Under the pieces are notes generated by a model, which worked only from the letters and a program-made list of their open reading frames with translations, was not told where the DNA came from and searched no databases. Below are positions 1,112 through 42,902 of a stretch of DNA of 42,979 bases, piece by piece (positions within the stretch are counted from its first letter, which is position 1; each line of letters starts with the position of its first letter). Origin of the DNA: a virus. Made by a program: the position numbers and the translations under genes. The DNA is taken from IMG/VR virus record IMGVR_UViG_3300037180_000029, positions 1 to 42,979 of that record. One strand, written 5' to 3'.

Positions 1112-1141
1112 ACCATAGTACCAACATGGTATTATGGTCAA
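1112..1141 (-). promoter_or_regulatory. operator and promoter of the left operon (site A)
   Basis: An inverted repeat covers 1112-1138: ACCATAGTACCA, a 3-base spacer, then TGGTATTATGGT, with 11 of 12 positions paired. A minus-strand promoter overlaps it: TTGACC (1141-1136) and TACTAT (1120-1115) with a rather short 15-base spacer. The half-site TAGTACCA/TAATACCA recurs at 28661-28683, 42493-42508 and 42891-42898. I infer that the ribbon-helix-helix protein at 42515 binds here. Confidence 0.6.
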
Positions 1142-3045: not shown

Positions 3046-6000
3046 TAGTTTGGGTTCCCAAACACGAACGCGCCCCAGGTTTCAGAGTTCAACACCGCCG
3101 AGGTGATAGTTACGGTCGTGCCAGATACCGTGCAGCCGACTGCCCCGCCCGTCAAGGTTGCGCTCTGCTGTGTAGCGATGCATACCGGCGTCGTATAAGT
3201 ATGGCCTAGAGTTATCGCGCAACTGGTGCTGGCAGACATGGCGCAGGTTCCGCCCGTACTGCTGGCAGCCGTCTGAACCATTGAAGGCAGCAGCGCACCG
3301 CTGCTAAAGGTCTGCGCAACGCTGAATGTCTGTGCGAGATTAATCCCGGCTAAAGTGATGGAGGCATCGGGGACCGTTAGCGTCCTAAGGTTGCTCGCAG
3401 TGATGCTGGCCGCAGAGAAGTGGAATTGCTTGGATGCTGTCGTGGTGTCGTAAAAGACGAAGTTGGGTGCAGGAACGCCTTCCGTCCCGCCCGTGAATGA
3501 GAACGGATTAAGTTGAATGGTGGTGCCATCGTCCAGCGCCAGATAGATCCCGTTCGCCTGCACTGAGATAGTAGAAGTGGTTCCAGCATTTTGAATCTTC
3601 ATGGCCCTGGCAGTGCCACCGTTGATTGTTATCGTCGAAGATCCGGTTGAAGCGTTGGCGAGCTTTACAAAGAAGAAATTCCCCGCCACGGTGCCTGTAT
3701 ACGACGTGTCTCCCAGCGTGATCGCATAGGCGTTAGCCGATCCGGTATCGACCGCGTACCCCTTGAACTGAAGCGAGTTCGCGTTGTCGTAGCGCTGGAG
3801 ATTATTGGTCGCGTCGGCCTTGACGGTGACGCCGGAATTGTTATTCGTGATCGCATTGTGGGTCGAAGTAAAACTCCCCGATCCATTCACGAATGACAGG
3901 CCGGCGACCACTAGGGCGGTATTGACCGTATTCGCCACCGTGATCCCGGTCGCCGTGCTGCTGGCAACTTCCGCCTTCATTACCTGGTTCTTGACATTCA
4001 CCGCGCCGCAGCCATCGATTTGCCAGATCGCCGTGGTGGTGTCCGAGTTGCTGGTCTCGGTGTAATCGTTGACAAAGTTGACAGTGGAGACATGGGCTCC
4101 GGTGTCATGGCAGTACATCGCAGGCAGCGCGGGTCCGGGGTGGACAATGCTCGAATCCGTAACCGAAAAGTCCGATTGCCCCAGCGTGCTATCGGCGAGC
4201 ACCAGCAGCGGCGTGGAAACGTAATTGCCGTTGATCTGGCTATGCTGAATAGAAGATCCGCAGCACGCGCCGTACACCTTCAGGTCGACAGCATCGATAT
4301 CGTCGAAGAAGACCATGTGATCCCATGTCGAACTGTCATACGCGGGGCCGAGGATATAGGCGTTAACCCCATTGGCAGTGGCTGCCCCTGATCCGGCATG
4401 GTTAAAGACGGCAAAATTCGCAGCGTAATAGTAATCGCTGCTTGAAGGCGAGGTGCAGTAGTTGTAGCCTAGATTCGAGCCACTGGCAGGCGAGATTTTA
4501 AACATGCTTCCAATCCCGCTGGCCGGCGATGTTCCGATGATGCTTGCCCCTCCATACTGCTTGATTGTGCAGGAAGTTCCATCGGTCATTCCTCCTAACC
4601 AAGAGCCGGTAGCAGGAAGAATTAGCTTTACCGGCGCACCACTGGAATTGCCAACTACAACCTGCGCCGCTTCGGTCAGCGTTCCACTCTCCTGGCTTGC
4701 ATCCACGATCCCTGTCGTGTTGCCGTTGGTCAACGCGATGGCGTCGGCCATGGCCGCGTTGACGCGTGCATCCACCGTACTGCCGGGGTATAGCGCGGAA
4801 ATGCTCACCCCGTTCACAACCTTTTGATTTACCGTGGACACCGCGCTTCCGTTTAGCGTAACCACGCCAGATGAAGGACGGCAAAGATAAGTGTCAGAGG
4901 CCGACTGTCCGTTCGTGGCGGAGCTCCACTGCAAGCAGGCGTTACTGGGGATTGCAGGTCCAGGGCTGGTGTTGAATCCTCCGATAGCATTGTTGAGTAT
5001 GTCCATCAGCCAATTTCCAGAAGTGCTGTCGTTTGCAATAAAGCGCGGGTACCCGCTATCAGAGATGCTTTGGATATTGTGATTGCCGCCGAATTGGATT
5101 AAGTCTCCGCTTGGAATCTGCAGGTTTGCGTTGACGGCAAGAGATCCGCTTATTCCGTTGATTGTGCCGGTTGTGATCGTGGCTGCCAGCGAAGGATTCG
5201 GATACGTCCCCGCGAGAGTCCCGCCCGCTGGTCCCGCTGGTGCACCTCCAGCCAACCCAGGCAGGTAGTCGCCCATGGTTTGCCCGCAACCCGTGTCGTT
5301 TGCCACAACATCAAGTCCAGCCAGAGCCTTTGACGTATAGTCCGATGGGTTAACTATGGGACCAGATTGGGTGACGAATTCCTGCCATCCCGTTGGGGCT
5401 CCGCCACCGGTACACAAAGACTTGGTGCCAATGATATTCACTTGGTTTATCGCAGAGATAGCTGATGCGAAATAGAATGTCGCTGATCCAGGACTGACGT
5501 TCCCACTCGTCAGACCACCTGTACCTTCGAACGTGGAGGCTTGGAGGGTGAAGGGTTGGGTGATCTCTACCCAATGCTGAAATATATTGTCGAATTCTGT
5601 CCCGATGAAATGATCGCCGCCGATTGTGGTGCCGCCAATCGGGATGAACGTCGGATGCAGGTGGATGTGAGTTGACTCTCCATCGCCAGTGAAGAACCCT
5701 GCCACCGATCCCTCGTAGATCACGATGTCTTTTGACGTGCTGTCTGAGTTGTAAAACTTGATGCCGTAGTTGACATTAGGAGTCTGGTAGACCTGCACAT
5801 AAAATGGCCCAACGCATCCGGTTGCGCCTGTCATCGGCGTGATTGCCGTCACCGCCCCGCCAGCAATCGTTGCCACGCCTCCGCCCGTCGGCATTGTCGT
5901 GCAAGGCTGAGGCGCAGAGCCACCTTGATATCCCTGCAAAAGCACCTTGGTTAGACCCGTGTAGGTGTTGGCATAGCAGCTCCCACCGCTCACAATGGTA

Positions 6001-18346: not shown

Positions 18347-20172
18347 TGCACTGCCGTCAGAGGTACGTATTTTCCGTTAACAGCGTGGCCGATCAGTTTA
18401 CCGCTTTGGTCATGCACTTCGGCTGTGGCGCCCGGCGGGGCTTGCGTTGGTTGCGGGTGCCAGCGCTGCAAGTACCGGTTGTCGCCGATGATCTCTTGCT
18501 TTCGATTTGCCAGCAGTGGCCTGAGTGTCTTATTTGCCACAGCGGCGATCTGTCCGGCGTTAAAGTTTTTGTTTAACAATTCATTCGCCTGCTTCAGCTT
18601 CGCGTCAGACGTTCCGCCACCGCCACCGCCTTGCAGAATCTTCGCAATCTGGTCGCTGGTCTCTATCAGGGCCGCGTGGTAGGCCGCTACTTGCTTCGAT
18701 CCTGCATTCAGCCGGGCCCACTGGGCTACGTCGTTCAATGGCGGGAATTGTGTGTTACCCATCGTTTTCGACATCTCAACCACCTTGCCCAGGTTGCCAC
18801 TAGCGTTGTCGCGGCCAGTGAGCGAGTTCAGATAGTTCAGCGTGTCGGTGGTGCTCTTTTGGGTCGCGTACTTGTAATCGCCGCTGGCTTTCGCAATGTC
18901 GAAAGGCTTGCCCGTGGTTTTCATCGAGTAGTCGTTGGCGGCCGCTAATTTGGCGTCGTAGTCTTTCGAGCGCTTGCTCAGCTGCGAGGGATCCATGGTG
19001 CCCTCTACTAATCCCTGGGCGAGCGACTGGTTTTCTGGGCTGTTCGCGCTTGCGGCTGCCGTCTCTGCATTTGCCTTGCCGGCTTCCGCATAGTTCTTCG
19101 CGGTCTCGGCTCTGTTTTTCGGAACTTCCGAAAGATTCTTTTGCGTCTCTGCGCCCGTCAGCGCTTGCTTTTGCTGCGCGGTTTCCCAGTCCTGGTACCG
19201 CTTGTTGCTGGCAGCGTTGTAGCTGTCGATTTCGTTAATCGTATGCTGGCCCGATGGGGTTATCTCCTGGTAGCTGGGCTTTTCTCCAGGCTTCACTGGT
19301 GGCACGAATCGCCTTATTGTGGTTCCTTCGGGGGCTGGGGTATCGCCTACACCAGGCTGGCGCAGGAAAAGATGCACTCCTTTTCTGGTTCCGTCGGCGT
19401 CAAATACGGGTACGGCGCGAATGGCATTGTCGTCGAAGTGATGTTTCCAGAAATCAGGGTCAGCCTTCTTAACATCTGCCATTGAGTAGTGGTCCGGGAA
19501 AGTTCCCAGATCGGCGCTTTGCAGTTGCTTTTCGCGGTCTTCCTGTTCCTGCGAAAATTTCACGTCTTCCTGGCCGGCCTGCACGCCCATGCGCTTCAGC
19601 GCGAATTCATTCTTGGTTGTTTCCATGGCCAGAAGTTGAGAGTTGGCTTTCGCTAATTTCGCTTGCTTGTCTCTCTGGTAGTCCTGTTCCGCTTGCTGGT
19701 CCTGGCCCTGTTTCATTTGGTCTTGGGCTTGCGTCTGGGCCTGTACTCCCGCAAGCGCTGCACGGCCCATGTTCCCCGCACCTTTCCCGGCCGCCCACCC
19801 TGCAGTACCACCTCTTAAAGCTTCGCCAGCGATCTTCATCCATTGCTGTTTACCAGTTAGGTCCGGGTGCTGAACAAATTTCTCGCCAGTGTCGGGGTTT
19901 ATGTAAACTCCGCGGCCTTGGGTACCGGCTACCGCATCGCGGAATTCATCCACTATCCCAGCCAGGCCGCCGCGGTGCTGCTTTACCAGAACCGTGGGGC
20001 CAGCTTGCTGCGGGGTGGGCTGCACCTGGCCGGCATCCGGGGTCTGGGTTTCCGGCTGCGGGGTCGGCGCGCCAGCGTTCGCGGTTACAGTGTCGGGCTG
20101 TGAGCCAGCTTGCGCTATCGGGTCGGCTTCGCCCTGCGTTGCTGTGTCGGGGGCGGTTGCGGTGTCAGCCAT
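18343..20172 (-). CDS. probable internal virion protein, long coiled coil (609 residues)
   Basis: Starts at ATG 20172, directly after the previous stop. The first 60 residues are low-complexity Thr/Ala/Pro/Gln (DTATAPDTATQGEADPIAQA-like). Residues about 140-220 are a Gln/Lys-rich coiled coil (AQTQAQDQMKQGQDQQAEQD). A globular part follows (about 225-330, DVKKADPDFWKHHFDDNAIR), then more coiled coil and a C-terminal beta-type tail (SGKLIGHAVNGKYVPL). This resembles the large helical proteins ejected into the cell by podoviruses. Role inferred from architecture and position. Confidence 0.65.
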   Translation of the reverse strand: MADTATAPDTATQGEADPIAQAGSQPDTVTANAGAPTPQPETQTPDAGQVQPTPQQAGPTVLVKQHRGGLAGIVDEFRDAVAGTQGRGVYINPDTGEKFVQHPDLTGKQQWMKIAGEALRGGTAGWAAGKGAGNMGRAALAGVQAQTQAQDQMKQGQDQQAEQDYQRDKQAKLAKANSQLLAMETTKNEFALKRMGVQAGQEDVKFSQEQEDREKQLQSADLGTFPDHYSMADVKKADPDFWKHHFDDNAIRAVPVFDADGTRKGVHLFLRQPGVGDTPAPEGTTIRRFVPPVKPGEKPSYQEITPSGQHTINEIDSYNAASNKRYQDWETAQQKQALTGAETQKNLSEVPKNRAETAKNYAEAGKANAETAAASANSPENQSLAQGLVEGTMDPSQLSKRSKDYDAKLAAANDYSMKTTGKPFDIAKASGDYKYATQKSTTDTLNYLNSLTGRDNASGNLGKVVEMSKTMGNTQFPPLNDVAQWARLNAGSKQVAAYHAALIETSDQIAKILQGGGGGGTSDAKLKQANELLNKNFNAGQIAAVANKTLRPLLANRKQEIIGDNRYLQRWHPQPTQAPPGATAEVHDQSGKLIGHAVNGKYVPLTAVQ

Positions 20173-28100: not shown

Positions 28101-28367
28101 TTATCCTGCATTAAACGAGGCACAATACACGCTCAGCTCTTCCGATGCCGCAGCTCCGATCAATACCGCCTTTACATTTTCCGGATCGGTCCACGTGTAG
28201 GTATCTGCGGAATATCCATCGTCGCTTTTCCATGCCTTACCGTCCCAAGAATAGCTGCCCGCCGGATGCGTTTCTCGCGCCTCCTTCTCGGTCAGCGCGG
28301 CGACTACGGCAGAGTCGTAGGTATCGTAGCCCCGATTTTTATCTTGCCTGATCAGCCACAAGTTCAT
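28101..28367 (-). CDS. small conserved phage protein (88 residues)
   Basis: The start is ATG 28367 (ATGA overlap). The sequence MNLWLIRQDKNRGYDTYDSA VV followed by EKEARETHPAGS is a pattern seen in small proteins of many phages, which sense no obvious substrate. The fold is probably a small alpha/beta sheet with Trp-rich face (SWDGKAWKSDDGYSADTYTW). It precedes the tail nozzle gene. Function unknown. Confidence 0.65.
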   Translation of the reverse strand: MNLWLIRQDKNRGYDTYDSAVVAALTEKEARETHPAGSYSWDGKAWKSDDGYSADTYTWTDPENVKAVLIGAAASEELSVYCASFNAG

Positions 28368-28663
28368 TCTTCTACCGCCTTCTTGCACCGGCCGCACAGT
28401 AACAGGGTTCTGGTTAAGCGTCCGCAGATGTTCTTATCGTGGAAGCATTCATTTTGCGCTGGGGCGAGGGTTTGTACAATCGCTGCTTCTGTGGGGGTGG
28501 CCTCGCGCACAAAAGCCGCCGTCGCATAGCTCAGGCTTCCGTCTGGTAGGCGGATCATTGCCCCAGGGCCCGGCTCATAGGTCACCATTTGGCCAATGGC
28601 GAGGAATAGTCCCGCCCCTGTCTCCGCCACGACCAGCATACCCAAACTGTCTTTGGTAATCAT
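28364..28663 (-). CDS. first gene after the internal promoter; Cys-pair protein
   Basis: The 99-residue product starts at ATG 28663, which lies inside the operator and only about seven bases from the proposed -10 box, so the message would be nearly leaderless; no ribosome site is visible. Residues 1-60 look like a small beta-barrel (MLVVAETGAGLFLAIGQMVT); the C-terminus has CGRLTRTLLLCGRCKK, a likely zinc knuckle. Being directly operator-controlled, it may be a regulatory protein, but that is inference. Confidence 0.6.
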   Translation of the reverse strand: MITKDSLGMLVVAETGAGLFLAIGQMVTYEPGPGAMIRLPDGSLSYATAAFVREATPTEAAIVQTLAPAQNECFHDKNICGRLTRTLLLCGRCKKAVEE

Positions 28664-28698
28664 GGTATTAAGTTAGTACCATGGTTTTCAGATGTCAA
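28661..28698 (-). promoter_or_regulatory. promoter and operator inside the late region (site B)
   Basis: The inverted repeat is CATGGTATTA (28661-28670), a 3-base spacer, and TAGTACCATG (28674-28683), 9 of 10 paired. The minus-strand promoter is TTGACA (28698-28693), a 17-base spacer and TAACTT (28675-28670). The -35 box is perfect, the -10 box poor. It would start transcription at or near the ATG at 28663. Confidence 0.6.
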
Positions 28699-28707
28699 GG
28701 GTTATTT

Positions 28708-29400
28708 TTAGGCTCGTGCGTAATAGGGCATCACGACGATGGTGCCGTTCATTTTTACTTGCGCGTAGCCGGTCGGGGTGGCTGGCAAGGCTGCGGCCCC
28801 GCCCGCAGCGCCTACCGTGGTCTGGGTGGGGTAACTGGTGAAGCCCAGCAGGCTCTGCAGTGCCACGCCGGTGCCTACGATCTGCAGGGCTGTGTCACCA
28901 CCGCCGCCCTGTGTCACACTCATGGGCGTGCCAGGGGTGGCGTTGGCAAGGCTGTTTGTACTTACGCCGGCAGAAGAGAGTATCGCGGCGCCGGTGATGT
29001 TTCCGCTGCAATTCAGCTGAGTAATGGTCAGCTGGCCATTCGACGACCAAAAGGTGTCGTGTACTCCGTCTGTCACCTCTATTGCTTTGTTGCTGTCGGT
29101 GCCGCCGCCAATCGTTATCCCGGTTCCGGCCGTGTGGCTCAGGGCGGTCAGCTGGGTAATGTCGGCGTTTACTCCGCTCTGCGCAGCAGAAAGGTTCGTT
29201 CGCGCTCCCGCGGCCGTGGTCGCGCTTGTGCCCCCTTGGGCTACCGTGACAGGAAAGGTGATGCTGCCGCCGCCCACCGGTTCCCACATCTGGGCCGATC
29301 CAGAAACGTATAGCTGTGGGGTGGTGGTATCCAGGCCCAGCGCTCCAGAGGGGGCATAGCCAGCCAGCGGGTTCGGGCTTACCTTGTCGTATGCCGGCAT
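28708..29400 (-). CDS. tail appendage/fibre protein with GGTSATT motif
   Basis: The 230-residue protein contains VAQGGTSATTAAGARTNLSA (about residues 53-72), a motif typical of phage tail-fibre shafts, and is otherwise Gly/Thr/Ser-rich and beta-like. The N-terminus (MPAYDKVSPNPLAGYAPSGA, LGLDTTTPQLYVSGSAQMWE) resembles the attachment segment of the appendage at 31885 (LGLDLATPALYIAGTSGVLT). It is probably a minor receptor-binding appendage. No signal peptide. It directly follows the adaptor gene. Confidence 0.7.
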   Translation of the reverse strand: MPAYDKVSPNPLAGYAPSGALGLDTTTPQLYVSGSAQMWEPVGGGSITFPVTVAQGGTSATTAAGARTNLSAAQSGVNADITQLTALSHTAGTGITIGGGTDSNKAIEVTDGVHDTFWSSNGQLTITQLNCSGNITGAAILSSAGVSTNSLANATPGTPMSVTQGGGGDTALQIVGTGVALQSLLGFTSYPTQTTVGAAGGAAALPATPTGYAQVKMNGTIVVMPYYARA

Positions 29401-30105
29401 CTAATTTCCCCTCGCGGCCACGCCGGAATTCACTCGGCCCTGGCTGCGGGCTATGGTTGAAAGATCGGCCATCCAGTTGCCTAAAAAGATGTTCTTCTCC
29501 TGCTCAGACATTCCGTCTTGCAGGCCCAGCAGCGAAGAGGCGAACCATTTTTCAAAGATGGGGAAGCGTGAATCGTTCACCAGCAGCGAGCTGAACGCAA
29601 GAAAGCCGAAGTTGAAGCAGAAGCTGAATTCATCGGGCACCGGGGCCCAGGGGCTTGCGACCGAGGTCAGCAGGGTCGCTTTCTTTTGGTAAACGCAGTT
29701 CACCGTGTAAACCGCGTCTGGGGCTTGCGCCAGGCGAAATATGATTGTGCCGGCACTGTTGTCATTCTGTGGCGCCATCTGAGTGGGGCGGGTTTGGCTT
29801 TTGTCCGGCACCAGCGATATTGCGCCGTTCAGCGGGTAGATCGTTCCTGCCGAGTCTACGATCCACTGGTCCTCAATAAACCCCAGGTCGGCCAGGGTGA
29901 CCGTGTAGTCGGTCTGCCCAACCACGGTCACAAAGGTAAAGGTGTTGCGGTTAAATCGCCAGCGACACGGGGCGGCCAGCATACGCTGCAGCACAATGTT
30001 GCCCACGGTTAAGGCTGGTTCCTGGTTACTCACCGTCAATGGCTGGTTTTTGAGCATCGGCCCAGCCCAGTTGATCGCGTTCTGTATGGTGAGCGTCGAT
30101 GCCAT
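29401..30105 (-). CDS. tail adaptor-like protein (234 residues)
   Basis: The helical N-terminus MASTLTIQNAINWAGPMLKN, a beta-rich middle (FTFVTVVGQTDYTVTLADLG) and a helical C-terminus (FSFCFNFGFLAFSSLLVNDS, then MSEQEKNIFLGNWMADLSTI) match the plan of podovirus tail tubular protein A/adaptors, which bridge portal and nozzle. A second adaptor-like gene (30903) lies 800 bases upstream, and the two could form successive rings. The start is just after the TAGAAC palindrome at 30117-30130. Confidence 0.6.
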   Translation of the reverse strand: MASTLTIQNAINWAGPMLKNQPLTVSNQEPALTVGNIVLQRMLAAPCRWRFNRNTFTFVTVVGQTDYTVTLADLGFIEDQWIVDSAGTIYPLNGAISLVPDKSQTRPTQMAPQNDNSAGTIIFRLAQAPDAVYTVNCVYQKKATLLTSVASPWAPVPDEFSFCFNFGFLAFSSLLVNDSRFPIFEKWFASSLLGLQDGMSEQEKNIFLGNWMADLSTIARSQGRVNSGVAARGN

Positions 30106-30903: not shown

Positions 30904-31880
30904 CAGTATGGCTCCGCAGGGTCCTGAGGGTTTCTAAGCCAGGGGTACACGGTATCGACAGGGTAGGTCGCTGGAAATAGACCGTAAGCGTTCACTTCCT
31001 TGTCGCCCTGCTTCGCCGCGTCGAGCAAGTCTTTCTGCCACAGCGGGTAAAGAGCGTTGGCTTCCTGCTTGTCCTTCGGGTTCGCGCTCGCGCCCTTGCA
31101 GGCTATTTCGTAACCGCGACGGAAGTATTTTGAATAGTTGTCGGGGATCGGGTTTATCAGCTGCTGCAGCTTTATGAATTGGGGTGCGATCACCTGGTAC
31201 TTCGGGGTCATTTGCCACACTGGGCCGGTGGCTCCGGGCAGCGGGAACACGCGCCAGCCTTGCGAGGTTGGGGCCGCCACGGTCCAGACACAGCTGCCGT
31301 CATTCACCGTGGTGCCTTCTGGTGAGCTTGCGGCGGCAGCCGGCTGGGTGCTTCCGGTGGTTCCAAAGGTGGTCAGCACGAGAATGTTTCCGTTCACATC
31401 GATAAACGCCATGGCGCCGTTTTGGGCGGTGGGGTTGGTGCCCAGCAGCGGGCTGTATACCTGGTTCGCTCCGGCCCAGTTGCCGTAACCCATGTCCGAG
31501 TTGTACATCCAGCAAATCTTGCCCACCGGGCCGCTGGTCCAGTTGGTGCGGCTTAGCTGCTTCACAAAAGTGATATTGCAAAGGGGCTTGGGGATCGAGG
31601 TGTTGTTTATGTCTACCCGGTCGCAATCCTCGCCCCAGTCTACGTTGGCCAGGCCGATCTGCGGGTAGTCCTGCTGGTAGCTGTTGGTGTAAAAGGGTGC
31701 GGCTACCTGCGAATTCCATTTCCAGTTAAAGCGTTCTGCGATGATGTCGGCCATCACGTCGTTCGCCAACTCCAGGGCTAAGGCGGTGCCGTAGCCCGAA
31801 GGCTGGCTTAACGGCGAAGCAGTCGCTTTCGCGCTTACGATGTCGATGACCGACTGCAGCGTCTTGGTGCTGTTTCCCAC
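30903..31880 (-). CDS. second tail adaptor-like protein with inserted Ig-like module (325 residues)
   Basis: The N-terminal helices (ALALELANDVMADIIAERFN) and the C-terminal helical end (FRRGYEIACKGASANPKDKQ) match tail-adaptor proteins, and the middle carries an inserted module at about residues 150-200 (DVNGNILVLTTFGTTGSTQP, then SCVWTVAA). The same module type appears three times in the nozzle gene. The two proteins may contact each other through these decorations. Gene neighbours (appendage, head) support a neck role. Confidence 0.65.
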   Translation of the reverse strand: MGNSTKTLQSVIDIVSAKATASPLSQPSGYGTALALELANDVMADIIAERFNWKWNSQVAAPFYTNSYQQDYPQIGLANVDWGEDCDRVDINNTSIPKPLCNITFVKQLSRTNWTSGPVGKICWMYNSDMGYGNWAGANQVYSPLLGTNPTAQNGAMAFIDVNGNILVLTTFGTTGSTQPAAAASSPEGTTVNDGSCVWTVAAPTSQGWRVFPLPGATGPVWQMTPKYQVIAPQFIKLQQLINPIPDNYSKYFRRGYEIACKGASANPKDKQEANALYPLWQKDLLDAAKQGDKEVNAYGLFPATYPVDTVYPWLRNPQDPAEPY

Positions 31881-33189: not shown

Positions 33190-34356
33190 TTATGTCGTCT
33201 GCGGCACAGCGTCCCAGCAGCGTGCGCGGCTGGTTACGTCGGGCGGCGGACCGAAGGCCAGAATAGTGTTGTAGCTGGTTCCGGCGCCGATCACGCCTGC
33301 CGGGTCAGCCACCTGGCCGGGCTTGTATTCGCCCATCCACAGGGTCATGTTCTGGTACTGGCCGTCGTCAATGTCGGTGCGATCGGGCCTGCTCAGCTTG
33401 ATCGCAATCACTGCATCCATGCCGGCCAGGTAGGTTCTGATCGCCGTGTTGCCGCTCGATAGGTAGTTGGCGGTTTGGGTGCAGTTGGTCGACATCATCC
33501 ACTTTACGCCCAGCAGCTCAATTACCTTCACCTCGTCGCCTTCGGCACCGTCCGGCAACTCTTCCAACTTCAGCAAGCCTTCCGGGGTGTGCTTCATAAT
33601 GTCAACGATCGAGTTGTTGGTGTTGTCGAGCGCAATCAGGTCGCCCACAAAGAAGGGGTGAATCTTGCCGTTGTACGCGCCGCCAATCATGCCGGGCACG
33701 TTCTGCCCCATCAAGCTGAAGGGTGCCTGCTCAATCATTTGCTTCAGGAACGGGTAGGGCGACACGGTGGCGTCTTGGTTCGCAGTCTTGGCGTCGAGCG
33801 TGCGCAGGTAATCGAACACGGCCATCACCAGGTCGTCGATCGACAGCCCCAAGCGGTATGCCATCTCTCGCCGCAGGTTCACCATGTCATCAGAAATCGA
33901 GGTCACCAGAGCCTTGTCCGACACGTTCATGTAGTCAGCCCATTGGCCAAGCTGGTAATCCTGGAAGTTGGCGGTGAGTGTAATGCCGGTACCTACCGTG
34001 CCTTCTGTCTGCTGGGTAGTGTTGCCCGGCAGAACAGGCCACATGAAGTTGCGGAAGATCTGCCCCGACTTTTCAGGCATCGGCATGCGCGTACACATGC
34101 GCAGCATCACCAACATAGCTTTCAGGTTCTCAAGGAACTTTCGGTTGTAGAAAGTCGAAAGGGCTGCCTGGGGCATGTTGCCCGACATCATCGAGGTTGG
34201 GGAAATGCCGTCCGAGAAGCCAGGGGTTCGCGCTTGGGCACTTGCCATCTGCAGAAAGGCTGAGCCGGTAAACAGCAGCGCCGTGCCTGCGGCGATAAGC
34301 AGGCAGACCACTGCGCGGAAGATGTGGGTTAGCGCTAAGGTTACGCGGTCAGTCAC
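33190..34356 (-). CDS. major capsid protein, N4 gp56-like, with N-terminal signal-like segment
   Basis: Residues about 60-388 match the N4-gp56 family of HK97-fold capsid proteins: TEGTVGTGITLTANFQDYQL, then YMNVSDKALVTS and MAYRLGLSIDD. The best ribosome site (GGGGAG, eight bases before) points to GTG 34356, adding 36 residues before the next Met. These contain a hydrophobic stretch (about 15-36, VVCLLIAAGTALLFTGSAFL) ending MASAQA, which reads as a Sec signal with an AxA cleavage site. A capsid protein with an export signal is very unusual. An alternative start at ATG 34248 (352 residues) has no ribosome site. The scaffold gene is directly upstream. Confidence 0.85.
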   Translation of the reverse strand: MTDRVTLALTHIFRAVVCLLIAAGTALLFTGSAFLQMASAQARTPGFSDGISPTSMMSGNMPQAALSTFYNRKFLENLKAMLVMLRMCTRMPMPEKSGQIFRNFMWPVLPGNTTQQTEGTVGTGITLTANFQDYQLGQWADYMNVSDKALVTSISDDMVNLRREMAYRLGLSIDDLVMAVFDYLRTLDAKTANQDATVSPYPFLKQMIEQAPFSLMGQNVPGMIGGAYNGKIHPFFVGDLIALDNTNNSIVDIMKHTPEGLLKLEELPDGAEGDEVKVIELLGVKWMMSTNCTQTANYLSSGNTAIRTYLAGMDAVIAIKLSRPDRTDIDDGQYQNMTLWMGEYKPGQVADPAGVIGAGTSYNTILAFGPPPDVTSRARCWDAVPQTT

Positions 34357-35567: not shown

Positions 35568-35833
35568 GCCGTGGTGGGCTCTTCCTGTCGCGTACCGTGG
35601 ATCCGCTCCCAATCTTCCAGGTGCCCGTTCCAGTCGATAGGTACTCTTGCTTTTTCAGGCTTCGAGGCTCTCAGTTTTGCGGATAGGGCTGCCTTGTTCG
35701 CCTTTAGCGCCGCGCAGCAACATTCGCATGTGCCGTGCTCGCAATGGTTATGCTTTCCATCCCAGCAGGGCCCGCATAGCTTCTGCTGCTTGTAGTCTTT
35801 TGCTCCACCGTTTGCCAACACATCGCACCTCAC
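35564..35833 (-). CDS. Cys/His-rich zinc-binding protein (89 residues)
   Basis: The start is GTG 35833 in a GTGA overlap with the portal stop. Residues 19-40 hold CGPCWDGKHNHCEHGTCECC, a dense Cys/His cluster for one or two zinc ions. A basic helical stretch follows (NKAALSAKLRASKPEKARVP). It lies between portal and scaffold genes. The role is unknown; one of the strongest zinc candidates in this window. Confidence 0.65.
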   Translation of the reverse strand: MRCDVLANGGAKDYKQQKLCGPCWDGKHNHCEHGTCECCCAALKANKAALSAKLRASKPEKARVPIDWNGHLEDWERIHGTRQEEPTTA

Positions 35834-37968
35834 ATTCCTTGCTGCAAAATTTTCTCGTCTGCGCCGCGCTCGGCTAACCCCTCGGCGCGCTCCAGCGGTA
35901 GGCCGTCTGAGGTCTTGCTCATGGCTAGCTCAGCGGCTTTGTTACCCAGGTCTACTTCGCCCTTGGCCTGTATCTGCTGTACCTTGCCCTGCGTTTTTGC
36001 TTGCTCCAGGGCCTGGGCACCTTGCACTTTTTGGGCTACCGGGTTCGACTGTTGTTGCGCCTGCAGTTCCTTCGGGGTCATTGGGCGGAATACGTCCGGC
36101 TGCTGGGCTAACTCTGAAACCTGCAAGAACAGGTCCAAGATTACGCCGAAATCGACCGTCTTTCCTTCTTCGTGCAGGAATTGCAACAGCTGCGGTTGTT
36201 GTACCACTTGCAACATAAACGGTATCAGCTGCTGAATTCCTGCTTTGGCTGCCAAACGCTGGCCAGCCAGTACGTCAATTTCAAATTCGGCGTCAAGGAA
36301 TTGCTCTTCCTCAATCGCGGTAAGAATGATCTTCGCTTTGTCGCGCTTTAAGATCCGCCGTATCTCTTCAAGCGGCATTTTTTCTTTCACCATTTTTACG
36401 AGGAAGAGAATGGTGGGCACAATCACGCCTTCGGCTACCGCGTCGACGGGGTCGGCGATGGTGTCGTCTGCCTTGTTCGCTACCCGGTTAGCGCCTGTGG
36501 CTGTTCGTGCGGCCGAGCTGCCCGGGCTGCCTATGTTGCCTTGCATCATGGCGCGGTCTGCGCCAGAAAGTGAGTCGGCGCTTTGCTGTGACAGCTGCAG
36601 CCACTGCCACGATTCTGGTGGTATCTTCGGCGGCTCCATGTAGCCGACCGATTTGTGCACATCGCCACCAGGTGGCATGTCCAGGGCCCAGAATCCGCCC
36701 AGCCGTTGAATCACGTTTTGCGTGGGCGCGTTGAGGCCGCGGTCAATCAGAATGGGCGCATTCATGGGGTACGCCAGCATCTTTAAGCTTTCGTTCGTTA
36801 CCCCTTGGTTGATTCTTTGGTCCGGTCCGTCCAGGCGGCCGATCCCCATCCCATAGCCACAGCTGTCAATGCTCCACCAGTTGGCGGCCACGTGCGGGTC
36901 CATGCCAAGGTCGTGCTCTTCGTTGCGAATTAGCAGCTGCCGGCCTTCGTACGAAATCAGCGTCTTCACGGTGCGGCAGTCCCACCGCTCAATCATCAAG
37001 ATTGGTTTTAGTAGTGGGTCCTCGCTCATCTGCCGGTTGCGGCCCTCGGCGTGGGTCACGGCAGAGCCTTGCGCTGTCATCGAGTCTTCTATTTGCGAGC
37101 CCGCGGGCGCCGATCCACTGGCGTTGTTGATCATCCAGGTTTTCAAGGTTTCGTCGGCGGGTATGTTTTTGTAGCAGCTGAGCATGCGCATCTCTTGCAG
37201 GTCCGCGAAGCACACATAGTCCACGTCGACTATGTATTCCGCGGAAGCTCCGATGTCGTTCGGCGTGCACCATTTAGGCCCTGGCAAGCTAGTACCTAGC
37301 CTCCTGTAGTCGAAGAATGGCCAGCTCTCGGTGCGCGTCTCAGTGACGGTTTCCATCTCATCACTTTCTTTGCTGGGTATGTCTGTTTTCCCAGTGACGG
37401 GCATAGTTACGCTGTCAACTGGGCGCTTCCGCTTGCGGGTTTTTATTTCAACCTTGCGCTCTTCCCATCCCAACTTTCCCATGCCGGTGCCCTGCAACAC
37501 TTGGCTGTCAATCAGCAGGCCGGTATGGTACTTGAATTTCATGCGCTTCAGCAGTTGCGCAATTAGGGCGGTCCAGGCGTCGGCTTCTTTTTGGGTGGTC
37601 TCGCCGATCGGGCGCAGGAAGAAAGGGTTTTGTTCCGCAAATAGGGCCCTCTTTACTTGGGTGGCCATGGTGCGCGTGTTCTTCGCCACCAGGTAGCGGC
37701 TTATGCGCGGCGGGCGTCCCTGCTCCACGCGTGGGTAGCGGTCGAGGGTGGGGCTTTGATAGAGAATGTCGCTGTGTTGCCACTCCAAAAGCCAGCTGTT
37801 GTTTTCAACGTAGTTCTTCGCGTTCTGATAGTCCTGCCAGATCAGCGTGGCGGCTGCGTCATCAGCCCAGATCGGTGGGACCTGGTTGCCCACTGTAGTG
37901 GTAACGTCACTCGGCCGTATCGGGTCACCGACACGGTTACCAATCGGCATTTGGGCGGTGCTAGCCAT
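35830..37968 (-). CDS. portal protein (712 residues)
   Basis: I place the start at ATG 37968, directly after GGAGGGGG; a further upstream frame overlaps another gene. The protein has the size and texture of podovirus portals: an N-terminal charged helical entry (WQDYQNAKNYVENNSWLLEW), a central alpha/beta wing (VDVDYVCFADLQEMRMLSCY), the region around GMGIGRLDGPDQRINQGVTN, and a Gln-rich C-terminal coiled barrel (QQSNPVAQKVQGAQALEQAK). Portals form a 12-fold ring that takes in DNA and joins the tail. Located between terminase and capsid genes as expected. Confidence 0.8.
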   Translation of the reverse strand: MASTAQMPIGNRVGDPIRPSDVTTTVGNQVPPIWADDAAATLIWQDYQNAKNYVENNSWLLEWQHSDILYQSPTLDRYPRVEQGRPPRISRYLVAKNTRTMATQVKRALFAEQNPFFLRPIGETTQKEADAWTALIAQLLKRMKFKYHTGLLIDSQVLQGTGMGKLGWEERKVEIKTRKRKRPVDSVTMPVTGKTDIPSKESDEMETVTETRTESWPFFDYRRLGTSLPGPKWCTPNDIGASAEYIVDVDYVCFADLQEMRMLSCYKNIPADETLKTWMINNASGSAPAGSQIEDSMTAQGSAVTHAEGRNRQMSEDPLLKPILMIERWDCRTVKTLISYEGRQLLIRNEEHDLGMDPHVAANWWSIDSCGYGMGIGRLDGPDQRINQGVTNESLKMLAYPMNAPILIDRGLNAPTQNVIQRLGGFWALDMPPGGDVHKSVGYMEPPKIPPESWQWLQLSQQSADSLSGADRAMMQGNIGSPGSSAARTATGANRVANKADDTIADPVDAVAEGVIVPTILFLVKMVKEKMPLEEIRRILKRDKAKIILTAIEEEQFLDAEFEIDVLAGQRLAAKAGIQQLIPFMLQVVQQPQLLQFLHEEGKTVDFGVILDLFLQVSELAQQPDVFRPMTPKELQAQQQSNPVAQKVQGAQALEQAKTQGKVQQIQAKGEVDLGNKAAELAMSKTSDGLPLERAEGLAERGADEKILQQGM

Positions 37969-38110
37969 GCAGCCCCCTCCAGTTGCGCTTCCAGCCCCAA
38001 CTTCTAGCTTCCTCAAAGGTGCTGAAGATGTGATCCACTATGCCAGGTATTTCGACGCGCCACGTCGGCCAGCGATAACCACCGTACTTAGCTAGCCGCG
38101 CTTTACCCAT
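37961..38110 (-). CDS. 49-residue basic aromatic protein
   Basis: ATG 38110 overlaps the terminase stop by eight bases and the frame ends inside the portal start. The sequence is basic and Trp-rich (MGKARLAKYGGYRWPTWRVE, then EEARSWGWKRNWRGLHG): seven Trp in 49 residues. Coupling to both large neighbours and its composition argue for a real gene, possibly a portal/terminase helper. No family recognised. Confidence 0.55.
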   Translation of the reverse strand: MGKARLAKYGGYRWPTWRVEIPGIVDHIFSTFEEARSWGWKRNWRGLHG

Positions 38111-39764
38111 CTAACCCTCCAAGCACGTCAGGCAGCCCATAGCTGTTACGCGGGTGCATCATGTTCATTTGGTCGCGCAGGCGTTGCTCTTCCATGGCCT
38201 GCTGGCCCGCGGCGCCGTACACCATGTTGCTTTCGAGTTGCTGGCGCTTGCGTCTCTGGGCGACCAATTCTTCCTCGTCGATCTCGGTGCGCAGCAGGCT
38301 TACCGGTATCTTTATCGCCAACCTGCTGATCGCGTCGATGATGCCGTTCTCAGAGATTAATCCGAAGTGTACGAATTGTCTCCGTGTTTCTGTCGACTTG
38401 CCGGCTGCGGTTGAAATTGATAGCCGGCCGCTGCGCATCATCGGTTCCAGTTGCTCGATGCGGCTGAAGCGGTCTCCGTCGCTTTCTTCAAATGGTATCC
38501 AGTTCAGGCATATCGAGACGTTCTTTTTGTAGCTCTCGTTCTTTATGTGGGCCTCAAGGTAGCGGGCACCGGGCACATCCTCGGCTGTCACCAGGCCGGC
38601 TTGGTGCTGGTGGCATTCCTTCACTACTTTTTCAGCCAGGCCCGTGGGGGTGTAGGCACCCTGCCAGGCGTCAAGAATATACAGGTGCCCGTTCACCACG
38701 CGGGCCGCGGACCCCTCGGCGTACTTCGCCATGAAGTCTTTGCCGCCGTAAGGGAAGCGCCAGAAGATGAAGGTTTCACCGAACTGCGGTATCCGGTCGG
38801 GCTGCACCAGGGCCTGGTCGTACAACTCGGGCGGAAATTTCACCATACTGCCGCCCTGGGGGTCGTTCATTTGCTGGCACATGAAGGTTTCATAGTCGTT
38901 GTCAAACTTGGCCTTCAAATCGTCGTAGGTTTCGATCTCGCTGAACAGCAGCTCCACTGCTTCTGGTGGCGGGAACTCTCCACCTTGCAAGCGCTCGCCG
39001 CTCTTCACTATCAGCGATGCACGTATCAACACTTTCCATCTGGCTCGGTCCATTTTTTCGAGCGTATACCCCCACAGCTCAAAGGGGTGGTAGCGGGTGC
39101 CCCTCATGTGCACATAGCCCCCGCGCTGCAGGGTGTTTAGGTTGGTGTTATGGTTGTCAATCACCGACTGGCGCACTTTGGGGCTAGCTTTGATGCCGCT
39201 GTTTTGTGTGTCAACACAATCGTCAGGGTTCAATACCCACGGGTGCCAACCGGATTGCGTTGAGTCGACCGAAGTGGATGCTATGGTCTCGTCGGGCTGT
39301 GCAGCTGTGCGCGCAGGCGAGCGATATTCACCGTCGATCTGCTTTGAAACTACGTGCTCTGGGAAGCATATTTGAAACAGTGACGGTTGCGCGCCCTTGG
39401 GCTGCAGAAATGCCCTGGCCACCGTGGTGTCTGTTAGGGCTTTCGATAGTGGTTTTGTCGCAGTTTCGTTCAGAATCGTTACGTCTGGGTCAATCGCGAT
39501 CCACTGTACAGTGTCGATTATTCCGAATGTGGTTTTATAGGTATTGCGGGGGTCGAGGTGAAGTCTAAACTTGATATCACTCTGCTGTTCGAGGGGCAGT
39601 CCAGGTCTCTTTGCCACATATAAATCGGCAACTGGTCGGTGAATTCGTTCGACAAATTTAGTATAGCCCAGCATTCGACCGAGGAAGAAGTGGTCGGTTT
39701 GGCAGCGGAACCTGGATTCGTCTCGGTATTCGGCATCGCCGATCAACCTTTCACGGTCGAGCAT
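38103..39764 (-). CDS. terminase large subunit (553 residues)
   Basis: The ATPase half has a Walker A-like LDPRNTYKTTF (70-80), DD at 181-182 followed by QNS, and GTRYHPFELWG (222-232), the conserved coupling segment of phage terminases. The C-terminal nuclease half contains VVNGHLYILDAWQG (356-369), the RNase H-like strand carrying an acidic residue. The enzyme pumps DNA into the procapsid and cuts it. Walker A deviates from the usual GKS/T form, as in many phages. No separate small terminase is identified with confidence; the genes at 40764 and 41257 are candidates. Confidence 0.8.
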   Translation of the reverse strand: MLDRERLIGDAEYRDESRFRCQTDHFFLGRMLGYTKFVERIHRPVADLYVAKRPGLPLEQQSDIKFRLHLDPRNTYKTTFGIIDTVQWIAIDPDVTILNETATKPLSKALTDTTVARAFLQPKGAQPSLFQICFPEHVVSKQIDGEYRSPARTAAQPDETIASTSVDSTQSGWHPWVLNPDDCVDTQNSGIKASPKVRQSVIDNHNTNLNTLQRGGYVHMRGTRYHPFELWGYTLEKMDRARWKVLIRASLIVKSGERLQGGEFPPPEAVELLFSEIETYDDLKAKFDNDYETFMCQQMNDPQGGSMVKFPPELYDQALVQPDRIPQFGETFIFWRFPYGGKDFMAKYAEGSAARVVNGHLYILDAWQGAYTPTGLAEKVVKECHQHQAGLVTAEDVPGARYLEAHIKNESYKKNVSICLNWIPFEESDGDRFSRIEQLEPMMRSGRLSISTAAGKSTETRRQFVHFGLISENGIIDAISRLAIKIPVSLLRTEIDEEELVAQRRKRQQLESNMVYGAAGQQAMEEQRLRDQMNMMHPRNSYGLPDVLGGLDG

Positions 39765-40158: not shown

Positions 40159-40749
40159 TTAGAACGCTACACAGAGGTCTTGCACGACCAGCGCGTTGCC
40201 GACAAAGCCTGCGCTAAAGGTGCCGCTTACGCCAAAGCTGGCCACCGGGTTGTTTTTGTAGTTGATCCCGGTCACCACGTTGCTTACAGCCACCGATGCC
40301 ACCAGCGTGTTGTTAATGGAAAATCCCACAGTACCAGTCAGTTTTCCGCTGACCGAGTCGAATACGAAATTTCCCTCTATCCAGTACGGGGCGCTGGCAC
40401 TGTTCTGCGCGACCGCGCCGCTCGAAGCCAACAGCATGTTGCTGCCAGGCGTGGCCGAGGTGCCCGAATAAAGCTTTAGCGTCACATTCGCGGTGCCGGC
40501 CGTCTTAATGAAGCCGGTTGCCTGCACAATAAACTTTCGCTGCTCCAGTTCGGTGCCGGAAGGGATCTGCACCAGCAGTGGAAGGGTTGGCTGCGCCGGG
40601 TTCAGGACCATCTGCTCAGTGGTCACCGTGTTGGCGGTGAGCGTGGCCGGCAAGGGAACTACGCCGCTGCCCGCCTGAACGTTGAGCGATAACGGGGTGG
40701 CCGGTAGTGGGGTGGCAATCGACGGCCCGTAAAGCCTGGTGCTGGGCAT
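40159..40749 (-). CDS. probable virion surface protein (196 residues)
   Basis: The protein is Pro/Thr/Ser/Val-rich with an extended N-terminus (IATPLPATPLSLNVQAGSGV), a beta-sandwich body (FIVQATGFIKTAGTANVTLK) and no charged coiled coil. Texture suits a small capsid decoration or fibre protein. It lies at the front of the head module, ahead of the terminase. A short hairpin region follows its stop. No family recognised. Confidence 0.6.
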   Translation of the reverse strand: MPSTRLYGPSIATPLPATPLSLNVQAGSGVVPLPATLTANTVTTEQMVLNPAQPTLPLLVQIPSGTELEQRKFIVQATGFIKTAGTANVTLKLYSGTSATPGSNMLLASSGAVAQNSASAPYWIEGNFVFDSVSGKLTGTVGFSINNTLVASVAVSNVVTGINYKNNPVASFGVSGTFSAGFVGNALVVQDLCVAF

Positions 40750-40763
40750 GGTGTTTCCTTTCC

Positions 40764-41291
40764 TTACGGCTGCGTAGGGGTTTGCGTATCCGCTGAGATA
40801 CTATCCCGCTCAGCCGGGGCGGTGTCAACAGGTTTCGGCGGTAGCTCGCCAACAATGAGCGCTAGGCGCGCCCTCTCTATCAATTCCTCGTATTCTTTCA
40901 CCTCGTCGGAATCTGGGCCGGGCATATCTCCCTGTTTAGTCCATTCGATTGCGTTCTCCAGTGCCGCCATGGTAACCGCGAGCGCTGCCGCTAGTTTCGA
41001 CTCTCGCTTAGGTGCCTTACCTCTTTTCTCTCGACGCCCCCTTGTTTCCTGGCGCCAAAGCTTGAACTCTTCGCGGTCTTTCGGCGTATTTGGAGTGAGG
41101 CAGGTAGGGCAACGCCATTGCTTAAATAGGCTGCCCTTGTAGTGGCGCAGCAGGTCGTAGCATTCCGGGCTGCAGGTGTCTTTGCGGCGCCGTACGCGGC
41201 CACCGGGTATCTCCTGCTTGCACACCACGCAGTTTAGGTGCATCGCGGCCAGCGTTTCAGGGCTCGGTGGTGGCGTTTTTACTCTTGGCAT
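40764..41291 (-). CDS. zinc-finger DNA-binding-type protein (175 residues)
   Basis: ATG 41291 follows GGAG at good spacing. Residues about 20-70 hold CVVCKQEI, CSPECYDLLR and WRCPTCLTPN, six to seven Cys in a compact array typical of a double zinc finger. The rest is helical and charged. Similar small zinc proteins are found near terminases in phages. It could be a small terminase or a transcription factor; I see no decisive motif. It overlaps the upstream gene by 35 bases. Confidence 0.65.
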   Translation of the reverse strand: MPRVKTPPPSPETLAAMHLNCVVCKQEIPGGRVRRRKDTCSPECYDLLRHYKGSLFKQWRCPTCLTPNTPKDREEFKLWRQETRGRREKRGKAPKRESKLAAALAVTMAALENAIEWTKQGDMPGPDSDEVKEYEELIERARLALIVGELPPKPVDTAPAERDSISADTQTPTQP

Positions 41292-42306: not shown

Positions 42307-42497
42307 CACGCCCTTTTTGGGTATTTCCATGCGGGAGATGCCGCGATATTACTAACGCCACTGTGGGGAATAGCGCGCACCGCCTTCTCGTAGTGGCAGT
42401 CCCAGCAAAGAGTGCTGCCCTCCACGGAAAACTTCGACGTGCAGGACTCGCACACGCCAACGGATACAAAATCCTGCTTGCTCATGAGCTTCATCAT
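42306..42497 (-). CDS. small zinc-ribbon protein next to the central operator
   Basis: The frame is 63 codons from ATG 42497; ATG 42485 (MSKQDFVSVGVCESC) is equally possible. The protein contains CESCTSKF and LCWDCHYEKA, two CxxC knuckles, the plan of a minimal zinc ribbon. No ribosome site is visible and the proposed -10 box ends seven bases before the first ATG, so the message may be leaderless. It is the first gene of the main rightmost transcript. Confidence 0.6.
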   Translation of the reverse strand: MMKLMSKQDFVSVGVCESCTSKFSVEGSTLCWDCHYEKAVRAIPHSGVSNIAASPAWKYPKRA

Positions 42498-42532
42498 GGT
42501 ACCATGATAATACTATGCCTGAAGCTGGTCAA
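42493..42532 (-). promoter_or_regulatory. central divergent operator and promoter (site C)
   Basis: ATCATGGTACCATGAT (42493-42508) is a perfect 16-base palindrome. The minus-strand promoter is TTGACC (42532-42527), 17 bases, TATCAT (42509-42504). On the plus strand, GATAAT (42506-42511) lies right in front of the ATG at 42515 of the divergent gene. The palindrome thus covers both start regions, a design for tight joint repression or autoregulation. Confidence 0.65.
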
Positions 42533-42691
42533 GAGAAAAAGACGCAGAATTACCTGTTTAAGAATTTTCGTTTTATTAGCGCGGAGCACCAGGCGATGGT
42601 TCGAGAGGCTGCAGAGCTGGCTGGGTTGTCAGTCAACGCTTGGATCGTGAGCGTTACCTTGCAGGCTGCGCGGAAGCAGTTGTCCAGATAG
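42515..42691 (+). CDS. ribbon-helix-helix (Arc/CopG-type) DNA-binding protein
   Basis: The only convincing plus-strand gene, 58 residues. It begins MPEAGQEKKTQN, then a beta-strand (YLFKNFRFI), helix A (SAEHQAMVREAAELAG), the turn LSVN and helix B (AWIVSVTLQAARKQL), the exact plan of a minimal Arc/CopG-type repressor that dimerises through the strands and reads DNA with them. Its start lies in the palindromic operator, with no ribosome site, suggesting autoregulation and perhaps leaderless translation. I infer that it binds the TAATACCA half-sites at four promoters. The short size kept it easy to overlook. Confidence 0.7.
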   Translation: MPEAGQEKKTQNYLFKNFRFISAEHQAMVREAAELAGLSVNAWIVSVTLQAARKQLSR

Positions 42692-42839
42692 CCCGTCTGG
42701 TTTTTGTTCTCCATCTCCATTGGACATAGAGGAGATGGAAGTCGCATAGATTCGTCTCTGGCTCGGCTGGGTGAACCCCACACATCACACACATGCCGGC
42801 AGATTTCCTGCGGGACCACTTCGATTGCGAACGCTCCAT
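42654..42839 (-). CDS. small zinc-ribbon protein, convergent with the repressor gene
   Basis: The 61-residue protein starts MERSQSKWSRRKSAGMCVMC and has CVMCGVHPAEPETNLCDFHL, a Cys/Cys/Cys/His zinc knuckle. A similar CxxCGxxPxEPxxxxC knuckle is common in tiny phage proteins. Its 3' end overlaps the repressor gene by 38 bases on the opposite strand. Site D lies about 50 bases upstream. An alternative frame across the same region has no recognisable domain. Confidence 0.55.
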   Translation of the reverse strand: MERSQSKWSRRKSAGMCVMCGVHPAEPETNLCDFHLLYVQWRWRTKTRRAIWTTASAQPAR

Positions 42840-42883
42840 TTTTCGAGCCGCATCCTTATTGGTTTTCTTACTTTTATTTATAT

Positions 42884-42902
42884 CATATTATGGTATTAGC
42901 AT
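42884..42902 (-). promoter_or_regulatory. operator half-site D with AT-rich promoter region
   Basis: TGGTATTA (42891-42898) is a single copy of the operator half-site, flanked by ATATTATGG. The region 42870-42890 is strongly AT-rich with several TAT(A/G)AT-like boxes suited to a -10 element facing the gene at 42654-42839. No good -35 box is visible. Confidence 0.4.

Follow-up and report, generated by a model that had tools for sequence, protein, structure and literature searches.

Comparison with Known Regulators

Arc, the repressor of the Salmonella phage P22 and a member of the Arc/MetJ superfamily, binds over a promoter at two half-sites spaced by one helical turn and regulates its own gene. 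The DNA analyzed here, a linear virus record from IMG/VR (G000), is 42,979 bases long, and the whole of this stretch is referred to as the window. It encodes a small ribbon-helix-helix (RHH) protein of 58 aa, compared with 53 aa for Arc, which is its nearest solved structure by profile (E ~0.03) and by fold. As in Arc, the operator in the window has a pair of half-sites with a spacing of one helical turn and lies over the gene's own predicted promoter. Unlike in Arc, the operator has another sequence, the gene is divergent from the terminase operon rather than placed in an ant/mnt region, one word is found over several operons, and the start codon of the gene, which is probably leaderless, lies under the operator. 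Judging from the comparative evidence presented below, we consider it likely that the 58-aa protein acts as an autorepressor of the Arc type and governs a small regulon.

Three other kinds of system invite comparison. The repressor mRNAs of lambda and PY54 are leaderless (PMC4488713), and their CI/Cro switches share with this locus a repressor gene without a leader (predicted here) and operators over divergent promoters. The repressors of those phages are helix-turn-helix proteins, whereas the window has an RHH protein and no recognized lysogeny genes. Among the approximately 40 of its ORFs that were scanned, there was no match to CI, Cro, or integrase and no helix-turn-helix repressor; the record may be incomplete, and no replication genes were recognized in it. 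RHH antitoxins such as RelB (PMC2812701) and MazE6 (PMC9477884) autorepress via tandem half-sites. Together with TacA, they resemble the present system in RHH domain, tandem half-sites, and autorepression (predicted here), and differ from it in that no toxin partner is found here and operator copies lie at further operons. Bidirectional bacterial promoters (PMC12825309, PMC10268837) likewise have a symmetric −10 between divergent genes. At this locus, by contrast, the symmetry reaches past the −10, and one-way promoters carry the word as well.

The nearest named phage was Tunturiibacter phage Tunturi_3 (PP885686; terminase 22%, major capsid protein 38%), a podovirus of 97.6 kb whose host is an acidobacterium (PMC11924767). 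Going by the annotation names in the stretches of Tunturi_3 examined, no gene beside its terminase is named a repressor.

Paired Boxes in the Window

The pattern TRRTAYYA-N3-TRRTAYYA was matched exactly three times in the window (Table 1), compared with 0.0 matches expected from 400 second-order Markov simulations. All three sites have the same architecture of two 8-bp boxes (8-3-8) with centers 11 bp apart. For the looser box TRRYRYYA, pairs within 40 bp occurred in the window at a center distance of 11 only, and no exact TRRTAYYA pairs were present at other short spacings. Every box is pseudo-palindromic (RRTAYY), and TGGTATTA and TAATACCA both match. The preliminary description had the half-sites in a different order from site to site, which turns out to be one architecture read on either strand. 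It had also described the third site as overlapping half-sites at 42493–42508; the arrangement there is actually the same 8-3-8, at 42497–42515. CAT and ATG flank all three sites in the form CAT..ATG, so that the third, flanks included, extends over 42495–42517. The A of the RHH start codon is the final base of operator 3, in agreement with the earlier claim that the gene starts within this site. A default-seed inverted-repeat search missed all three sites, the boxes being too short for such a search.

The signal resides in the pairing of the boxes, not in single octamers. The octamer TGGTATTA was found three times in the window against 0.71 expected by chance, with two of the three within pairs, and single octamers with one mismatch were not enriched (17 found, 13.8 expected in the window). 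A second lone TRRTAYYA box, at 39572, lies inside the terminase gene. Lone boxes occur about as often as chance predicts, and the pairs are found at three promoters only. The half-sites themselves lie where they had been reported, and three of the four promoters of the regulon proposed from them have a paired site. The fourth, at 42891, was rejected because its box has no 11-bp partner, the adjoining TCATATTA is one mismatch off, and such a lone octamer is indistinguishable from chance.

A chance likeness among the three remaining sites would be helped by the fact that the pattern was picked after the sites had been seen, and by the lack of enrichment of single octamers. We nevertheless give this explanation a vanishingly small probability: pairs occur at one spacing only, and the relatives contradict it, with other words recurring independently at corresponding places.

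Box-like words were also seen past the RHH gene, toward the right end, at 42860–42900 in the window and, in two relatives, at 41257 (G001) and 31021 (G017). The latter is a perfect 19-bp palindrome, TAGTAGCATATTGCTACTA, at 31021–31039 (L065 11021–11039). These right-end words and the palindrome fit the regulon pattern poorly. Separately, the palindrome at 1112–1138, at site 1, also scored as an intrinsic terminator on the + strand.

Table 1. Positions of the operators, predicted promoters, and adjoining genes in the window.
Feature	Position	Strand	Remarks
Operator 3, TGGTACCA-TGA-TAATACTA	42497..42515	.	Common to RHH gene and leftward main operon; same place in relatives
Operator 2, TGGTATTA-AGT-TAGTACCA	28663..28681	.	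Mid-late (tail) operon; counterpart in ~9 relatives
Operator 1, TAGTACCA-ACA-TGGTATTA	1116..1134	.	Left operon; within near-perfect palindrome 1113–1137
Lone TGGTATTA box, candidate fourth site	42891..42898	+	No partner at 11 bp; unsupported
RHH regulator gene P0001, 58 aa	42515..42691	+	Pfam TacA1 match marginally over cut-off; P22 Arc nearest among solved folds
RHH gene −10-like hexamer CATGAT, −12 to −7 from ATG	42503..42508	+	Weak copy, 4/6; position conserved in 26 loci
Main-operon leftward promoter TTGACC-17-TATCAT	42504..42532	-	−10 within operator 3; consensus scan
Mid-late promoter TTGACA-17-TAACTT	28670..28698	-	−10 within operator 2, ATG at expected +1; by eye
Left-operon promoter TTGACC-18-TATGGT	1112..1141	-	Operator 1 fills spacer; consensus scan
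Main operon first ORF P0002, 63 aa	42306..42497	-	ATG at operator 3 edge
Mid-late operon first ORF P0005, 99 aa	28364..28663	-	ATG overlaps operator 2
Left operon first ORF P0004, 71 aa	882..1097	-	
Terminator-like hairpin, RHH gene end	42684..42700	+	2 such in region vs. 0.7 expected

The RHH Protein

P22 Arc ranked first by both profile and fold comparison with P0001, at modest scores. Profile A1 gave E-values of 0.02–0.03 against 1u9p and 1b28, compared with 0.57 for the single sequence. Foldseek returned Arc, NikA, and CopG as the nearest folds with weak E-values (best 0.12, probability 0.99). In the monomer model, helices at residues 23–36 and 40–56 were predicted at high pLDDT and the beta strand was unformed. 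A search of named phages with P0001 gave no match, and a search of bacterial genomes gave one distant match.

The Pfam TacA1 match could mean that the protein is the antitoxin of a toxin–antitoxin pair whose operator recurs elsewhere by accident. This reading was rejected as highly improbable: the RHH operon holds no partner toxin gene, the RHH gene is followed by a terminator-like hairpin and then by a gene on the opposite strand, and no co-transcribed toxin gene was seen in the relatives. The protein also has no tail of antitoxin length, its helix running to residue 56 of 58.

Promoters and Operons under the Paired Sites

All three paired sites overlap sigma70-like predicted promoters, two of them found by a consensus scan and the one at 28663 by eye, as the scan did not list the mid-late promoter. 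The register of operator to promoter differs, the center lying at −9 at sites 2 and 3 and in the spacer at site 1; a varying register is expected of an operator. The leftward main operon spans the terminase (38103–39764), portal (35830–38016), and capsid (33190–34356) genes, and its first ORF, P0002, had no family match above the cut-off.

Survey of RHH Loci

Terminase, portal, and capsid searches yielded approximately 70 loci, overlaps included, in which the RHH gene was sought by profile search. Wherever it was found (26 related loci), the gene was divergent from the terminase operon. The close relatives are all virus records from metagenomes, many of which are fragments, and share ancestry, so the counts given here are not independent. 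Across the 26 loci, the palindrome center peaked at −9 from the RHH ATG, with a mean of 6.15 of 10 pairs compared with ~2.4 elsewhere; start codons in 7–8 loci were picked by eye among in-frame ATGs, partly using the palindrome, which favors this peak somewhat, and most loci required no such choice. At least 6 of 10 pairs were found at −9 in 17 of the loci, while the other nine had fewer, some due to a shifted center.

The −10 hexamer of the RHH gene peaked at −12 to −7, and no Shine-Dalgarno word preceded the gene in any of the 26 loci. Given a −10 that precedes the ATG by approximately 6 nt and the lack of such a word, the RHH mRNA is probably leaderless.

The −10 signal was present on both strands, mirrored around −9, with mean scores of 4.42/6 rightward and 3.88/6 leftward and scores of at least 4 in 20 of 26 loci each. 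Bacteria often have bidirectional promoters (PMC12825309, PMC10268837), and the palindrome could be nothing else than a sigma70 promoter whose symmetric −10 serves both divergent genes, with no repressor involved. We consider this unlikely. The arms outside the −10 hexamer are palindromic too and, taken alone, also peak at −9 (4.15 of 7 pairs vs. 1.73). The word also occurs at promoters that serve one direction only; at site 1 it sits in the spacer rather than on the −10. In addition, the words co-vary within genomes. A bidirectional promoter may exist in addition to the operator, and part of the palindrome symmetry could be due to a bidirectional −10.

Recurrence of the Operator in Related Phages

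In approximately 10 phages, the operator word is found again at the same tail-gene promoter downstream; approximately four of them also have it at the left operon. When the RHH operator of each locus was used as a query on its own sequence, the best other match fell within 160 bp after the homolog of window 29401–30105 in 8 of 21 loci (L080, L083, L078/G001, L085, L090, L013, L075/G017, and G011), with 0–1 equal matches elsewhere in 14–21 kb. The combined p was 9e-7, for phages that are not independent and conditional on operators defined from the RHH start, with the operator center hand-set for three loci. The window's own site was missed by this automatic 160-bp search because an extra gene (28708–29400) intervenes between 29401–30105 and operator 2. 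Mid-late sites ending in ATG were found in the window, G017, L083, L085, L013, and G026. In a permutation test, the mid-late site of a locus was matched better by its own operator than by the operators of others (p 1.5e-4), a result that comes mostly from divergent words, as the test ties within the TAGTG/TGGTA class and discriminates divergent words only. In the distant clades L089, L094, L111, L115–L130, and L122, the mid-late position yielded no copy of the RHH word.

Three relatives illustrate how the place of the operator is conserved while its sequence changes. G001 (IMGVR_UViG_3300036830_000163) is syntenic with the window; its RHH protein is 63% identical, and most shared proteins are about 32–66% identical. 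At the same place over its RHH start, it has the operator TGGTGCTA-TCT-TAATACTA. The octamer TGGTGCTA/TAGCACCA occurs exactly four times in G001, compared with 0.55 expected, and all four copies are in 8-3-8 pairs, two of them with one mismatch in the partner box. The pairs are located at 40457 (RHH start), 25056 (mid-late promoter, directly after the homolog of window 29401–30105), 5091 (left operon), and 29416. At 5091, TTGACA is followed by one base and the box, which is the register of window site 1. Between the window and G001, the operator word is changed and the predicted regulon is kept. In G017, the word TAGTGKYA was found at 30066 (RHH), 15375 (mid-late), 1504, and 23114. L096 gave a marginal mid-late match (p 0.045), and its whole contig, G026, has this mid-late site at 18859 and one more site, at 8003, directly after TTGACT. 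The latter and the G001 site at 5091 are counterparts of operator 1 at left operons, in the same register. A pattern scan for the auto-operator word also returned other viral contigs, which were discarded given that, G001 itself excepted, the ORFs downstream were unrelated.

The claim that one RHH regulator governs the left, mid-late, and main operons gains support from this comparative evidence, and the proposed link to a zinc gene is dropped. The boxes might instead be operators of another factor, either a regulator of the host or another protein of the phage; alternatively, the RHH protein might activate at them. RHH proteins are able both to activate and to repress (AmrZ, PMC3325190), and a winged-helix gene lies beside the RHH gene in G001. 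Against another factor, the strongest and most conserved copy lies over the RHH gene itself, which is the pattern of autoregulation, and the words differ among phages, which ill suits a fixed host factor. An activator would be poorly positioned at two of the three sites, where the operator lies over the −10 and start codon. We hold it improbable that either possibility accounts for the boxes.

Several features of these genomes were noted in passing. The winged-helix protein gene of G001 (40671–41024; L010 671–1024) adjoins the RHH gene as a possible second regulator and was not found in the window. The RHH protein of G001 (40475–40678; L010 475–678) has an apparent tandem duplication of the beta-strand segment (ASNFRYLIASNFRYVS). 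The homolog of window 28101–28397 is located in the left part of G001 (4042–4305), downstream of the left-operon operator and not in the tail operon, making it a gene that switched operon between phages. Short direct repeats (CAGTTCTCAGTTCA) were seen between the structural and tail operons in G010 (~5000–5150) and G012 (~5050–5190).

Proposed Circuit

We infer from sequence comparison that the RHH protein is the binder of the boxes, that binding there represses, and that the protein times the structural genes. Two RHH dimers would sit side by side, one per 8-bp box and one helical turn apart. At operator 3, the bound dimers would exclude RNA polymerase from the divergent RHH/main-operon promoter, and a single complex at 42497 would govern RHH gene and structural operon together. 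The dimers would also block the mid-late tail operon at operator 2 and the left operon at operator 1. For two genes, RHH and mid-late, the mRNA is probably leaderless, and the operator would mask its start codon as well as the −10.

It is plausible, and we suggest it tentatively, that an Arc-type RHH repressor, rather than a helix-turn-helix switch, times the structural operons across this phage group, with words that change together within each genome, a fixed promoter and start-codon geometry, and a natural series of matched RHH/operator pairs as the outcome. If binding is confirmed, this would provide a regulatory circuit for a phage group known only from metagenomes, apart from a distant cultured relative. 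If true, the RHH genes would also join the phage regulators with conserved leaderless geometry. About 20 naturally matched RHH proteins and operators, with distinct words on one fixed architecture, would likewise be available for reading the recognition code of beta-sheet DNA binders. A correspondence between beta-strand residues and operator word class is suggestive in this regard: the loci with an R-x-E/D beta strand (L013, L020, L085, and L113) carry YGGTA..TACCR words, and most others carry TAGTG/TGGTA.

In a Streptacidiphilus locus (L022 4560–4660), 5′ of a distant RHH-containing ORF, we observed TGGCACCA-AAG-TGGTGCCA in an 8-3-8 arrangement, together with further TGGCACCA words.
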